Assembly: GCA_003707065.3 (NCBI GenBank) | Contig: PPXM03000010.1 | Span: forward strand, 434,001-498,000 | DNA from: Trigonopsis variabilis | Taxonomy: Eukaryota > Ascomycota > Trigonopsidomycetes > Trigonopsidales > Trigonopsidaceae | Length of the DNA stretch: 64,000 nt | Direction: 5' to 3' | Shown here: positions 3,763 through 47,603 of the stretch, piece after piece | Layout of the letters: every line of letters starts with the position of its first letter | Numbering within the stretch: position 1 is the stretch's first letter | The notes under the pieces: generated by a model | What the model was told of the DNA's origin: nothing | Databases searched by the model: none | The model's input: the letters and a program-made list of their open reading frames with translations, nothing else | Program-made: the position numbers and the translations under genes

Positions 3763-4685
3763 ATGGCATTATTTCCTCGAGTTCCTCGCCATATATCATC
3801 CATGTCGCATCAATTTGGGCCAACAATTACATTGCTACAGCTAAAACCCGAACTGGGCAAGTTTCAAGCTAACATCACCCGGGCTACGGCCATGTTAGAG
3901 AGCTCCCAACCAAGTCTATCCAAAGGTCTGCTGATTCTGCCTGAAATGGCATTTACAGGTAAGTCTTTCTAGGTTTCTGATCTAATTCAGGTTATAACTT
4001 CTCCTCGCCTGACCATATAAGACCCTTCTTAGAATCATCAGAAGGCCCCTCCTACCAATGGGCATGCGACACATCGAGGAAATATAATTGTTATACAGTT
4101 ATAGGTGACTTAGCTCTCGTTCGAACACTCACATAAGGTTACCCCGAAAAAGCCGACGATTTAATCTATAACTCGCTAGTGGTCACTGATCCTGAAGGAA
4201 AACCTCATTTTCGCTATAGAAAGACGTTTCTCTATAGCCAAGACAAAATTTGGGGTGCAAGCGAAGGGAATGGATTTGGTCTGACATCTATTCCGGGCTT
4301 TGGGAAAGTTGCGATCGGGATCTGCATGGACTGGAGCCCCTACGAGTTTAAAGCTCCTTTCGACAGGTTTGAATTTGGAACCTTTGCAGCAGAGAATAAT
4401 GTGGATACAGTGTTGGGTTCAATGGCTTGGCTTCGCGACTCTGATCCAGATCCGGATAGTCTTCCGCGATACTGGGCAACTCGACTGTTTCCTTTAGCCA
4501 ACCGTCCCCGAAATGCGTTGCATCCACCGCTGGTTGTTATTTGCAACCGAACTGGAGTCGAAGAAGGCGTAGCATTCGGAGGTAGCTCTGTTGTGATGAC
4601 TTTAGGCTACAAGACATACACCCCCCTTGGGCAGCTATCGAAAGATGAGCCAGGAAGCCTAGTAATTGATTCGAGCGATAAATGA
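3763..4685 (+). CDS. NTA1: Protein N-terminal amidase (carbon-nitrogen hydrolase)
   Basis: NTA1 deamidates N-terminal Asn and Gln, turning them into tertiary destabilising residues of the Arg/N-degron pathway. Three exons (3763-3958, 3991-4104, 4138-4685) are joined by 32- and 33-nt introns with the frame kept, giving 285 residues. The nitrilase catalytic triad is visible: Glu in LPEMAFTGYNF (the codon after MAFT spans the first intron), Lys in RYRKTFLYSQD, and Cys in AIGICMDWSPYEFKAPF, the last very like yeast Nta1. The protein is shorter than S. cerevisiae Nta1 because the C-terminal extension is absent. I chose the first in-frame ATG; a second one (MSHQFGPT, about 14 codons in) is equally possible. 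It converges on CBF1, with about 110 bp between stops. Confidence 0.85.
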
Positions 4686-24192: not shown

Positions 24193-26199
24193 ATGCAAAC
24201 TCCTTCTCAAATTCGACAACTAGATATTCAGCATCCGGCTAATTCTGATTCGACGCCTTCATTCACTCGATCTGATCTTTCTCTTCGCGTCCCTTCTCCT
24301 CCTCCTCCGCAGCCTCAGCTCGCGTTACCGCGCTCCCAATCGATACTAAATCTCGATGAAGCTTCTCAAGGTTCTCCGGTGGCGAAGAGATTTGATTCTT
24401 TTGCTTCTCCAAGCCCAACCTCTCCTCTAGACCGCGTCGCAAAAGGGATTTTTGCCAATCAGCCAAATAAACGTGTTCACGCTCATCGAGAGAGAAAGGC
24501 CAGTCATTCGAAACATCGTCGATCTTTCCTTGACTCTCATGATATCTTTGGTGGAACTTTTACTCTGCCCGACCGTGATGCCCATGATCAGTTGGTGCTG
24601 GGTTCTTTATCTTACGAGTTGGGAACCCCCAAGAACCCTCTAACCAAGATACGCAAGACAATGTCTATGGAAAATGGCCTCGGAAAACGTGAAAGCCCCT
24701 TCACTATCAAACATCCTCTCCCGAATGCTTCTATTCACCCTCAGCACTCCGATCACAACGTGCTCCAATACTCTAACTCCTCGAATCTCAACCCAGAAAA
24801 CCACGATAAACCTCGAAGATTTCCTCTTTTAGCGAACGTCGAACCTCGCTTTTCAACTCCGACATATCGAGGAGTGAGGCCCCTTCAGACAGCGTTTATG
24901 AGTACTGGTTTGATCTCCAAGAGAAATAGACCAGTTATCGAAAGCAACCCAAGGCCTCCAGAAACCCCATGTAAAAGACCAGGCCGGCTAGAGTCGGTAA
25001 CGCGGACGGATTCAGATTCAAGTGATCCACTGACCCCCACTAAACAAGCGCCAAGTATACGCAGACAGATGCATCGGCGGCGCTCGTCACTTCAGTCGAC
25101 AGTTACCTTGGCCTCTTTACGGCAGTGGGACAGTTTAGACTCAGCCGTCAGTCCCTCGACACCTGCTAAAGAACAAAGCGTTGAAATTCTGGACCCTTGT
25201 CTAGTGAGTCGGTTCGAATCGGTTACTTTACTCGGTATAGGAGAGTTCTCGGTTGTATTTGCCGTGCGAGAAAGGATAAATGAGACTAAATGGGCCGTAA
25301 AGCGAACAAAAAGTACGATCGTTGGCGCTAAAGCTCGTCGGAGGCGGCTGGAAGAGGTTGAAGTTTTGCATGGGCTCAACAATGGTGTTGGTGACGGCCG
25401 GGAGTATGTTGTTCAAATGTCTTTTTTCTGGGAGGATCGTGGGTTTTTGTACATTGCGACCGAATTATGTGAAAATGGAAGTTTGGATGTGTTTCTAAGT
25501 GAAAGCGGGCGCGTGGCGCGTCTGGACGGCTGGCGGGTTTGGAAGATCCTTGTCGAGCTCGCTCTCGGGCTCCGTTATATCCATTGTTGTGGCTTTGTTC
25601 ATCTTGACATCAAGCCGGCTAATGTCTTTATAACATTTGATGGTAACCTTAAAATCGGGGACTTTGGAATGGCCACGCGTTATCCTGTCGAACCTGGCAG
25701 CGAGCGAGAAGGGGACCGAGAATACATTGCACCCGAGGTCTTAACTCAGCAAGAATATGGTCCGCCTGCCGATATTTTTTCTTTAGGATTGACAATGCTC
25801 GAGATAGCGGCTAACATCGTGTTACCTGATAATGGAGAGCATTGGCAGAAATTGCGATCTGGGGACTTGTCCGAAGCTGGTAGATTATCATCCGGCGATA
25901 TGAGTGCTAAAGCAGAAGAGGAAGTGGACAGCAACAGTTGTTCACCTGAGCCACCATGGGTCCCCAAGTTTATGGGAGAGCGAGCAGATGTGCTTGACCG
26001 CTTGGTGAGATGGATGACCAGGCCAGATCCACATGAGCGGCCAACTGCAGATGAACTGGTCAGCCGTGAAGAATTCCAATACATAGAGCGGACGCGAAAG
26101 GCTGGTGCAGTAATCTACGAAGGGGATTACGGGCCTGCGCCCTCTGAAGAGATGGGAGAGGTGTCCCGATGGCGGGCAGATAGCCGCATACGTGGCTAA
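24193..26199 (+). CDS. WEE1: Wee1/Swe1 mitosis-inhibitor kinase
   Basis: Wee1 phosphorylates the inhibitory Tyr of Cdk1 and delays mitosis. The single exon encodes 668 residues. The first ~330 are disordered, with many SP/TP sites, as usual for the regulatory half. The kinase domain starts near residue 337: glycine loop GIGEFSVVF (G348), Lys370 in WAVKR, catalytic loop HLDIKPAN (D472) and DFG Asp at 490 (IGDFGMATRY), then EYIAPEV and PADIFSLGLTMLEIA. The Wee1 trait is the GFVHLDIKPANVFI form with LDIK instead of the usual RDLK, and an EGD-R-YIAPE activation loop. An acidic insert follows NIVLPDNG. Paired ACGCGT boxes lie 42-57 bp upstream. Confidence 0.9.
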   Translation: MQTPSQIRQLDIQHPANSDSTPSFTRSDLSLRVPSPPPPQPQLALPRSQSILNLDEASQGSPVAKRFDSFASPSPTSPLDRVAKGIFANQPNKRVHAHRERKASHSKHRRSFLDSHDIFGGTFTLPDRDAHDQLVLGSLSYELGTPKNPLTKIRKTMSMENGLGKRESPFTIKHPLPNASIHPQHSDHNVLQYSNSSNLNPENHDKPRRFPLLANVEPRFSTPTYRGVRPLQTAFMSTGLISKRNRPVIESNPRPPETPCKRPGRLESVTRTDSDSSDPLTPTKQAPSIRRQMHRRRSSLQSTVTLASLRQWDSLDSAVSPSTPAKEQSVEILDPCLVSRFESVTLLGIGEFSVVFAVRERINETKWAVKRTKSTIVGAKARRRRLEEVEVLHGLNNGVGDGREYVVQMSFFWEDRGFLYIATELCENGSLDVFLSESGRVARLDGWRVWKILVELALGLRYIHCCGFVHLDIKPANVFITFDGNLKIGDFGMATRYPVEPGSEREGDREYIAPEVLTQQEYGPPADIFSLGLTMLEIAANIVLPDNGEHWQKLRSGDLSEAGRLSSGDMSAKAEEEVDSNSCSPEPPWVPKFMGERADVLDRLVRWMTRPDPHERPTADELVSREEFQYIERTRKAGAVIYEGDYGPAPSEEMGEVSRWRADSRIRG

Positions 26200-26312: not shown

Positions 26313-26930
26313 CTAGGCAGATTGAGATTCGGCAGCTGAAGCTGTGTGAGTCTCTGGCGTGGGAGTAGCCACTTTGGCAGATGCCAAATTTGACGTCGGT
26401 CGCTTTGACTGGTAGTCTTTGATAGCACTTTTTATCGCGTCCTCGGCGAGCATCGAGCAGTGTAGCTTGACAGGCGGTAACGAAAGCTCCTTAGCAATGA
26501 CTGTATTTTTAATCTTGGCAGCATCTTCTAGTGACATTCCATGGACAAGTTCAGTGAGGTAGGACGATGAAGCGATTGCAGAACCACAGCCAAAGGTCTT
26601 GAACTTCGCCTCCTCGATACGGCCGTCTTTACCCACCCGGATTTGGAGTTTCATGACATCTCCACAAGCAGGGGCACCTACTAGTTAGCACAATATCCCA
26701 TATATTGAAGAGGAGACTCACCTACTAGACCTGTACCCACATCAATATCATTTTTATCCATGGAGCCGACGTTGCGAGGTCGCGCATAATGGTCTAACAG
26801 TAAAATGGTTAATTAAAAGTAGATGAAAAAGTCACTTATCTTTCTGATGATAGAACCGACTACTAGAAACAGTAGGAAAAGCACGAAGTGGTTGCGTTCG
26901 TAAACTTCTTAGACTGAGTCGTGACAACAT
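26313..26930 (-). CDS. ISU1: Mitochondrial iron-sulfur cluster scaffold Isu1
   Basis: Isu1 is the scaffold on which the Nfs1 complex builds [2Fe-2S] clusters in the matrix. Three exons: 26930-26840, 26799-26722, 26677-26313, giving 177 residues. Exon 1 is an arginine-rich presequence (MLSRLSLRSLRTQPLRAFPT) ending YHQK. The ligand cysteines are in APACGDVMKLQ, KFKTFGCGSAIASSS and LPPVKLHCSMLAEDAI, which includes the LPPVK loop recognised by the Hsp70 Ssq1. Intron 1 (26839-26800, 40 nt) appears to be AT-AC: it starts ATAAGT and ends TTTTAC. Only this choice gives YHQK-VLDHYARPRNVGSMDK, matching the conserved KVIDHYENPRNVG; GT-AG choices break the frame or drop conserved residues. Intron 2 is an ordinary 44-nt GT-AG. 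A ~45-residue C-terminal tail beyond DYQSKR is longer than usual. Confidence 0.92.
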
Positions 26931-31465: not shown

Positions 31466-33176
31466 GGTCGATGTTGGACGGATGGAATAGCAAAGGTATG
31501 ATTGGCCATCGAAAATATGATACTGTAACGATTTCGAAAAGACCCCGGCATGGAGTCGAGGCCTACTGGCAACGTCCACTGAATAGACCGATTAACTAAA
31601 TAGGCTAAGATTGAGAACGAATGAATTGATATGAGTAATATGAATAGCTAATACTATCTCCCCACCACTGATTAGCGTAGGCTACTTGAGCCAGATTCGC
31701 AAAATCGACATCATCCTGTTTTTCGCCTTCTTTTCTTATTTAAGAAGATTTTAGTAGTACGTTATCTTAGAGATAAGATTTTTCAGGATATTATTTCTCT
31801 TCTTGCCCTTTCTATTCTAGTTGACACTCTTCATTTAAAGGTTTGCCGATCATCTAGAGAAGGAAGATTGAGTATTATCAACTCATTCCCGCAGAGCGCC
31901 TTGTGGAGAAAACCCATGCTCATATTAGTATGCCACTGCTTTATGAAGCATCCGGGGATGCTTCATAGATCAATCAATCTGGTTTTGACGATTTTCCAGA
32001 TGGTGGTGCATCTAGGATTTCCGCTATCGTGATACTCTTCCTTCACTAGAATCCCTTCCGCTCATCTTGGCCATTTATTAATATCTGAAGCGAGGTGTAC
32101 CTAGAATGCGCTTCTATACTTCAACCTCATACCACAAAAGTGAAGAATCCTCTATAATTGTCATTGAGAATTTAGATAAGCGGTTGTGTCCACCTAAATA
32201 ATAATTAAGCGTAGTTTCGTGAACAGAGTTCAAGACCATCTTTCCATTAGCTAGCCAGTGTTGACCCAACGTTCATGTAGGCAGTCATTCATATAAGGAG
32301 TTACAACACCGGTTCTCTAGACATGATGCCTACATTCTTTCACCCTCTCTTGGCCATAAACCAATGGATCTTCTTGGGAATAAACTCAGTTGCTAGCGTA
32401 CTTTGTATTGTGGCATTGGAAAATTTAGCAATTAGTGAGTAGTGATAAAAAAAAATTAACTGTCAGCTGATTTTTCTCGTTTTGGACTGGAGAAGGACAA
32501 GTCTCTTCCTTACTTGTTTAGCTATTTCTCGTTTCTTCCCTTGGTACAATATTTAATTTCCTTTTGTAAGTCGACGAGTAATTCCTCCTTCCAGGAATGA
32601 TATGTGTTCTTGTGATCACAGTTTCTCATACAGTTTCAATTCTCTTGCCTAGGCGTCATAGTCCGGCCGCGTATATTCCCATTAATGCATTACTATGAAA
32701 TCGGTATCAATCTAAAAAAATGAGCCGAAACTTGCTGGATAGTTTCTTCGTTCGACTTGGAGGGTACACAGAATATCGGAACAATGTAACGACCGTTCCC
32801 CCGGAAATTGCTTTCACTCCCGGCGCCATGTAAGCCGACTCCAAATTCGGAAAGATCAGAAGGGGATGGTACCGGATGTTAACTAAACGCGGTAATTATA
32901 TGCAATTAATAGAAGAAAAGCCGCAAAATCACCGCTTGACGAGGTCAAAAGCGGGTTTATCAGATACGAAACATTTTTAGATCCTGCTGGGTCTGTTCAA
33001 CCCGGACCCCAGGCATTAATCGAAATAACAATCTCTTGTGTAGTGAGTAACTACACTTATCGAGTCTATTCATCTTCTCGGTTCTATTTAAAAGAAAAGA
33101 AAGAATGGGTAAACTACTACGCACTAAGCAGTAACAGCAACAATGTGTCATAAAATTCAATAATAGCAGTCATAAA
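31466..33176. other. Gene-poor 1.7-kb region with a perfect hairpin
   Basis: Between the NDUFV2 promoter and the ADH 3' end. No gene is found. A perfect inverted repeat with 12-bp arms and a 2-base centre lies at 31942-31967. Confidence 0.4.
31942..31967. repeat. Perfect 12-bp inverted repeat (hairpin)
   Basis: Arms at 31942-31953 and 31956-31967 (TATGAAGCATCC and its complement) flank GG. It could be a protein-binding palindrome or a hairpin in RNA. No neighbouring gene end explains it. Confidence 0.6.
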
Positions 33177-35943: not shown

Positions 35944-37083
35944 CTACAACTCATCATGCTTTCCCCCATTTCTCGTGATGACCACGTACTCAATGTAGAG
36001 ATCTCCAAACCCATGTGAAGTATTAGGCATTCCTTTTCCTTTAATCCGTTCAACTTGACCATTTTGGATGGTAACCCCTTTGGCTCGACTGACTTCAATA
36101 GTGCTATCGCCAAAGAATGCCATATCTCTCTTCCATCCTCCTTGGGAAGCTTCGCTTTGACTCAAGGCCTCTCTGCGGAATAAGTCATAGCCTCGTCGCC
36201 AGTAGCCTAAGTTACCTTGGCTGCGGTCCTCCCTAATTTGAACAACCACGTCACCTCTAACCTGCCATTCAGGACCTTCGTCACCTTTCCCTTCAAATCT
36301 AATGAAATCGTTCCTAGAAAAGCCTGGTTCAGCAAACGCCGAGAAGGAATCCTTCTCGTCCTTGACCCGTTTTCCTCCGCAAGATTTACAGGGGTGAGAA
36401 ATCACCGAGCCTTTTCCTTCACATTCTCCACAAGGTTGTTGGATAGTCTGAACAAAACCAGGTGCTAATTGTACTCGCACTATTCGAACTCCTTGACCCC
36501 CGCAAGCTCCGCATTGTTTCCGCTCTCCATCTTGAGTCCCAGATCCCTTACAGCTCGAACAGTAATGTTGAATGTTGACATCAAAATCAATCTTCTTGCC
36601 CAAGTAAAAGTCTTCAAGTGGTAGATCAATAAACAGATTCTTATCAGGGGCTCGACGGATTCGTTGTTGTCCGAAAAATCCTCCAAATGGATCACCTCCG
36701 AAAAATTGCTGCTGTGTATGACGGGGATCTTGTCCTTGCGATAACTTCTCGATTCCCTCATGTCCATACTGGTCGTACACATCTCGTTTGTCAGAGTCAG
36801 ATAAGACCTCGTATGCAGACTGGATCTCGACGAATATCCGCGAAGCCTCTTCATCACCACTATTATTAATCATTTATCGTTAGTAACTCACGAGTTTTTG
36901 TCAGGGTGATATTTTTTTGTCAATTGTCGATAAGAAGATCGGATGTCCTTCTCGGAAGCATCCTTCTCTACGGCAAGGAGCTAGTCTCAGATATGTTTCC
37001 AATAATATACTTACTTTATAATAATCTTCAGCGGCGGATACACTCACCAACAAGGCTAATAGCCCTAGCATCAACCACTTCAT
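35944..37083 (-). CDS. SCJ1: ER lumenal DnaJ (Hsp40) co-chaperone, Scj1-like
   Basis: Scj1 assists the ER Hsp70 Kar2/BiP in folding and quality control. Three exons (37083-37015, 36980-36892, 36859-35944) with introns of 34 and 32 nt give 357 residues. Exon 1 is a signal peptide (MKWLMLGLLALLVSVSAAED). The J domain follows across the junctions (YYKLLAVEKDASEKDIRSSY, KKYHPDKNS with the HPD motif), then a Gly/Phe linker (FFGGDPFGGFFGQQ). Four CxxCxGxG-type repeats come next (CSSCKGSG, CGACGGQG, CGECEGKG, CKSCGGKR), then the substrate-binding C-terminal domain. The chain ends KHDEL, an ER-retrieval signal of the HDEL type. TCACGTGG lies about 45 bp upstream (37125-37132). Confidence 0.93.
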
Positions 37084-41601: not shown

Positions 41602-41919
41602 ATGCGACCAAGTCTTGTCAACGCTATGCGACCCTCAATCGTTCGAATGAATGCTGCCAAGCCTGGCTTTATTCGCAGATATATCGGCGAGATTCCTGCT
41701 GAGGTCTACCCTTTATGTAAGTCTAGAAATGATTGGAGTGCTGACCAGCAGTTGCTGCTATGAGTGTCGCTTTAGGTGGTAGGTCTATTAGGATGGTACT
41801 AATCTAATGAATTTCTAGCTGGCGTGTATTTCACTTATAGACATCTTCGTTATGATAACTTACGTCTCACTCGAAAAGGTCACAACGAGACAAACTATAG
41901 CACTTCAGAGGAGCATTAA
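41602..41919 (+). CDS. NDUFA4/B12D (MLRQ)-family small mitochondrial protein
   Basis: Members are ~80-residue single-helix inner-membrane proteins associated with complex I or IV. Three exons (41602-41716, 41752-41778, 41819-41919) join in frame across 35- and 40-nt introns to give 80 residues; the middle exon is only 27 nt. The chain reads MRPSLVNAMRPSIVRMNAAK, then GEIPAEVYPLFAAMSVALGA, then GVYFTYRHLRYDNLRLTRKG: a short basic N-terminus, P-E/A-V-x-P-L before the helix, and an Arg-rich segment after it, the B12D pattern. The helix is split across all three exons. Upstream in-frame ATGs (from 41560) exist. Role in respiratory assembly is by family. Confidence 0.7.
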
Positions 41920-47513: not shown

Positions 47514-47603
47514 TCGGTCATAGTTTAGTGGCTAGAATTTCCGCCTGTCAGACACGTGATAGTCAGAGCGCGGGAGACCCGGGTTCAATTCCCGGTGACC
47601 GAG
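47514..47603 (+). tRNA. tRNA-Asp (GTC) with an 18-nt intron
   Basis: The acceptor stem TCGGTCA (47514-47520) pairs with TGACCGA (47596-47602). The D arm is TAGTTTAGTGGCTAGAAT, the T arm CCGGG-TTCAATT-CCCGG, and the discriminator is G. The anticodon loop is CTGTCA followed by C, with GTC at positions 34-36. An 18-nt intron (47541-47558) sits one base 3' of the anticodon, the canonical position, and contains GAC-bearing sequence able to pair with the anticodon. The arms match eukaryotic tRNA-Asp closely. CCA is not encoded, as expected. Confidence 0.95.

Follow-up and report, generated by a model that had tools for sequence, protein, structure and literature searches.

A probable U2-type AT-AC intron in the ISU1 gene of the fungus Trigonopsis variabilis

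The first intron of the ISU1 gene of Trigonopsis variabilis appears to begin with AT and to end with AC, which raises the question of whether the encoded protein indeed calls for these ends and, if so, which spliceosome would act on them. The gene is located in a stretch of 64,000 nt (contig PPXM03000010.1), referred to as the window in the following, where a joined frame of three exons runs on the minus strand from the ATG at 26930 to the stop at 26313. The initial annotation had described an exon ending with CAGAAAG and a following segment of 40 nt closing with TTTTAC, leaving the strand unstated. Exactly this arrangement is present on the minus strand, and the features of the locus are as follows.

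26840..26930, minus strand: ISU1 exon 1, with the ATG at 26930 and the end CAGAAAG
26800..26839, minus strand: predicted ISU1 intron 1, 40 nt, AT-AC ends, phase 1, AAG/ATAAGT ... TTTTAC/TG
26809..26813, minus strand: candidate branch site TTAAC, assigned by motif only
26722..26799, minus strand: ISU1 exon 2, VLDHYARPRNVGSMDKNDIDVGTGLVG
26794..26795, minus strand: AG of TTAG within exon 2, competing 3' end of an AT-AG reading and of three in-frame GT-AG readings
26678..26721, minus strand: ISU1 intron 2, 44 nt, GT-AG, branch TGCTAAC
26313..26677, minus strand: ISU1 exon 3, through the stop codon

The joined product comprises 177 aa, and its frame reads ...SSSRFYHQKVLDHYARPRNVGSMDKN... across the junction in question. 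Judged by eye, the N-terminus encoded by exon 1 (MLSRLSLRSLRTQPLRAFPTVSSSRFYHQK) is presequence-like, and exon 2 begins with TGTTAGACCAT at 26799. NifU_N (PF01592) is matched over residues 27-149 with E=5.1e-51, while the NCBIfam equivalog model iscU (TIGR01999) yields 222.5 bits, above its cut-off of 192.4, and is covered at positions 1-123 of 124. The product is thus a member of the ISU1/IscU scaffold proteins with the full domain present. The solved 5t0v (‘Iron sulfur cluster assembly protein 1, mitochondrial’) aligns with E=1.4e-62 and remains ungapped across YHxKVxxHYxxPRNVG. Accordingly, the claim that excision of an AT-AC intron gives an Isu1 protein free of gaps was confirmed. In the neighborhood, a plus-strand protein kinase gene (24193-26199, PF00069) is convergent with ISU1, the two stop codons being 113 bp apart, and a match to Vac7 (PF12751) was found among the genes of the window, which agrees with a fungal host, as do the compact introns and the gene content.

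Retention of intron 1 (ATAAGTGACTTTTTCATCTACTTTTAATTAACCATTTTAC; exactly 40 nt, G+C 22.5%) was set aside, as the frame then stops directly after QKDK. Excisions were enumerated for donors from 26900 to 26820 and for 3' ends from within intron 1 to well into exon 2; they had to be in frame, free of stop codons and extended to PRNVGSMDKN, and the conserved block was scored as YHQK[VIL][VILM][DE]HY. Although 816 excisions keep the frame in this range, the conserved block (QKxxDHY or YHQKxxDHY) is restored by just three, namely AT-AC, which gives K-V-L-D, as well as GA-TA and AG-TT, which both give K-L-L-D. The latter two keep the block with L in the place of V and were set aside, because GA-TA and AG-TT are not known to be in use as splice pairs and because V prevails at this position in the IscU relatives described below. 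Among the known splice pairs, AT-AC alone would restore the ungapped conserved N-terminus, and the predicted AT and AC ends are fixed by the frame together with conservation. The bare pattern is not unique, since ATAAGT with an AC at the same spacing has three occurrences over the two strands of the window; the case depends on the conservation of the protein at the exact ends.

This conservation was assessed with 84 IscU relatives, four of them loci from viral_contigs and 80 kept out of 310 from genome_contigs. As genome_contigs is a collection of prokaryotes, the sequences are usable as protein relatives only and are uninformative on intron position. Gaps over residues 27-43 occur in none of the 84; residue 31 is V in 77, I in five and L in two of them, and residue 33 is D in 80 and E in four. 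With a model built from these relatives, the AT-AC protein obtained 217.5 bits, followed by GA-TA (215.8), AT-AG (209.1) and two GT-AG readings (209.0 and 207.5), the GT-AG reading from donor 26884 being left out of this scoring. The relatives were collected and aligned using the AT-AC protein as query; the V-L pair was not part of the peptide patterns of the scan. The NCBIfam iscU model is independent of the query protein and favors AT-AC over AT-AG by 8.1 bits (222.5 versus 214.4). The four contigs from viral_contigs (L001-L004, match from position 1501) carry an IscU 58-69% identical to Isu1 and may represent host DNA filed as viral.

Regarding the spliceosome, the donor had been described as U2-like and the branch region as compatible with either class, and both descriptions proved accurate. 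Measured against consensus strings, the donor agrees with ATAAGT at 6 of 6 positions and with the U12-type ATATCCTT at only 3 of 8; beyond the first base it is a U2-type donor with G at +5. The branch region TTAATTAAC agrees at 7 of 9 positions with the U12 consensus TTCCTTAAC. In the candidate branch site TTAAC, the branch A is separated by 9 nt from the AC end and by 15 nt from the rival AG end, and an alternative candidate, TTAAT, is found 4 nt upstream of it.

As a control set, 22 GT-AG introns were hand-picked among the matches listed for the window by recognizable protein continuity, without RNA; the underlying searches admitted only GT or GC donors and AG ends, so that the controls are all GT-AG by construction and do not imply an absence of AT-AC introns elsewhere. 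Their median length is 38.5 nt (32-55), compared to 40 nt for intron 1. A YTRAY motif is present in 17 of the 22, with its A 4-12 nt from the 3' end, and missing in the remaining five; the AC end at 9 nt falls within the range of these 17 introns, whereas the rival AG at 15 nt falls outside. The U1 duplex energy of the intron 1 donor (-4.7 kcal/mol) outdoes just three of the 22 control donors, which extend from -11.8 to -4.2 kcal/mol, and this counts against the AT-AC reading. Intron 1 matches the GT-AG introns of the window in size, donor context and branch-to-end distance. Apparent GT-AG introns of 32 nt are located at 3959-3990 (plus strand), 36860-36891 (minus strand) and 41717-41748 (plus strand); their branch motifs are placed 4-6 nt ahead of the 3' end, and their length is near that of the shortest spliceosomal introns known. 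Long introns also occur in the window, as indicated by an apparent GT-AG intron of 283 nt (31390-31108, minus strand) with a TGCTAAC branch; it was read by eye in a gene encoding a 2Fe-2S thioredoxin-like protein, which is probably the 24-kDa subunit of complex I.

Intron 1 is, in all likelihood, an AT-AC intron of the U2-dependent subclass that would be excised by the major spliceosome of the host. In the proposed mechanism, U1 and then U6 would bind AAG/AUAAGU via the bases flanking the mismatched +1 position, and step 1 would be performed by the UUAAC branch, which is placed about 9 nt ahead of the 3' end. In step 2, the first A and the last C of the intron would form the contact normally made by G and G, and this A-C contact may direct the cut to UUUUAC instead of the downstream UUAG. 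Most simply, such an intron could have originated from a GT-AG intron in which both end bases were changed.

Among the alternatives, use of the same donor together with the AG at 26794 deserves the first consideration. This AT-AG reading would produce, as main or minor isoform, an Isu1 protein lacking V and L (QKDHY), and the loss of two conserved residues asserted by the initial annotation was thus correct. An intron with A and G as its end bases is expected to perform step 2 poorly, which counts against it. The frame is kept, and a gene finder even rates the AG end (38.6) on a par with the AC end (38.3). Still, the two lost residues belong to a block without gaps in any of the 84 relatives, the score is 8 bits lower with both the model from the relatives and NCBIfam iscU, and the AG is 15 nt away from the best branch, beyond the 4-12 nt range. 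In the Ganoderma lingzhi table, AT-AG junctions are more numerous than AT-AC junctions (21 versus 13; PMC11590231). Overall, AT-AG splicing is considered unlikely at this locus. The gene finder cannot be taken as evidence for AT-AC splicing, be it in ISU1 or at other sites of the window, given the tie between AC and AG and given that, when extended by AT-AC, it accepted 152 such joins across the window; with 18 arbitrary end pairs, 93-223 joins were accepted, 13 of these pairs giving fewer and five giving more than AT-AC.

A broader explanation would be that the fungal lineage of the host is unusually tolerant of AT-AC ends, due to a changed major or a retained minor spliceosome. The intron in ISU1 would then be one of many of its kind, within a genome whose introns mostly measure 32-50 nt, and the intact Isu1 protein would depend on this tolerance. 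We regard such a lineage-wide trait as distinctly unlikely.

Alternatively, intron 1 might be of the U12 type and be excised by a minor spliceosome that this fungus would have retained. The AT-AC ends and the branch region would be in agreement with this; short minor introns are known from Blastocystis (median 39 bp; PMC10639083), and one fungus, Cutaneotrichosporon oleaginosum, was reported to possess genes for minor-spliceosome RNAs (PMC7072748). Nevertheless, the donor is ATAAGT and not ATATCC, with the poor agreement to ATATCCTT given above, and a large survey failed to find convincing minor introns in either Ascomycota or Basidiomycota (PMC10639083). Likewise, U11, U12, U4atac and U6atac were all missing from the 64-kb window, which is weak evidence, and a tRNA alone reached the gathering threshold. 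The U12 explanation is therefore very unlikely. The tRNA in question is a tRNA-Leu with the anticodon CAG (47514-47603, plus strand) that spans 90 bases and possibly contains an intron. A match to the c-di-GMP-I-UAU riboswitch at 32892-32965 (plus strand) obtained 27 bits, compared to a gathering threshold of 65.9 (E=0.15), and was taken as chance.

An error in the sequence or assembly, with true GT-AG ends of intron 1, would be in line with the neighboring donor bases, which match GTAAGT. However, the last base is C and not G, and this speaks against a mere base error at the first position; from the sequence, two separate errors would be needed, each exactly at one of the two terminal bases of the intron and together resulting in the one compensating pair, and this explanation is hence highly improbable. 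The least probable alternative is splicing from an upstream GT donor to the AG at 26794. It had been stated that GT-AG alternatives lose the frame, which applies to GTGACT at 26835 but not to the donors 26884, 26863 and 26860, as these are in frame with canonical ends; yet the three readings (introns of 91, 70 and 67 nt) were set aside on the basis of conservation and donor strength, since relative to the AT-AC protein their products are shortened by 17, 10 and 9 residues and lack YHQKVLD, and their donors, with 3 or 4 of 9 positions in the U1 register and -0.6 to -2.8 kcal/mol, are weaker than all 22 control donors.

The preferred reading, a U2-type AT-AC intron, is in accordance with known cases. 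In human SCN4A, intron 21 is an AT-AC intron that requires the major spliceosome, and the U2-type AT-AC introns of sodium-channel genes feature G at +5 (PMC2831892). ISU1 intron 1 shares the AT-AC ends, the U2-like donor and the G at +5 with this AT-AC II type. It differs from SCN4A intron 21 in being a predicted fungal intron of 40 nt, and while the sodium-channel introns are thought to be derived from U12 introns (PMC2831892), such an origin appears less likely for ISU1 intron 1. To the U12-type AT-AC introns, the similarity consists of the same end dinucleotides and a partly similar branch. In a mutated yeast intron, AT-AC was reported to be second in efficiency only to GT-AG, in a yeast devoid of a U12 spliceosome (PMC6726248). 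AT-AC junctions were also described for Saccharomyces cerevisiae, in the SUT635 protointron and as an alternative junction in RPL30, and thus likewise in the absence of a minor spliceosome (PMC6726248). These junctions are alternative or located in non-coding RNA, whereas in ISU1 the conserved protein would be obtained intact through this junction only. For Arabidopsis, a reporter was described in which an AT-AC intron of the U2 type is in competition with a GT-AG intron; the former accounts for approximately 17.5% of the transcripts in the unmutated line (PMC5473141), which indicates that AT-AC can be the weaker choice.

Fungal AT-AC introns were likewise described in Ganoderma lingzhi, where a table lists 13, one of them with confirmation by RT-PCR and Sanger sequencing (PMC11590231); the confirmed intron is located in another gene (chr6g0094801, zf-C4pol domain). 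The assumption that AT-AC introns are very rare in fungi is only in part sustained by the literature. It agrees with one survey, in which their share of the annotated introns of fungi is 0.019% (PMC7072748, Table 1), but RNA-seq of fungal pathogens gave far higher shares of 0.09-5.19% of junctions (PMC6176087), and with Ganoderma lingzhi, fungal cases had been confirmed earlier. At 0.019%, a window of some 24 introns would contain one AT-AC intron in about 0.5% of windows, a figure that is no test, as the window was picked because an AT-AC intron had been seen in it. Our literature search returned no paper on an AT-AC intron in ISU1.

With good support from its sequence, ISU1 intron 1 would therefore be a further AT-AC intron of an already known kind that is rare in fungi. 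In practice, it represents a hazard for annotation, as gene finding limited to GT-AG and GC-AG introns drops exon 1 of ISU1 and begins the protein within exon 2 (score 31.9). If the intron is spliced as read here, its length of 40 nt and the AG six bases past the AC would make it a compact natural substrate for studying the choice of the spliceosome between AC and AG. Moreover, an intact and conserved housekeeping protein would then depend on an A-C substitute for the contact between the first and last base of an intron.
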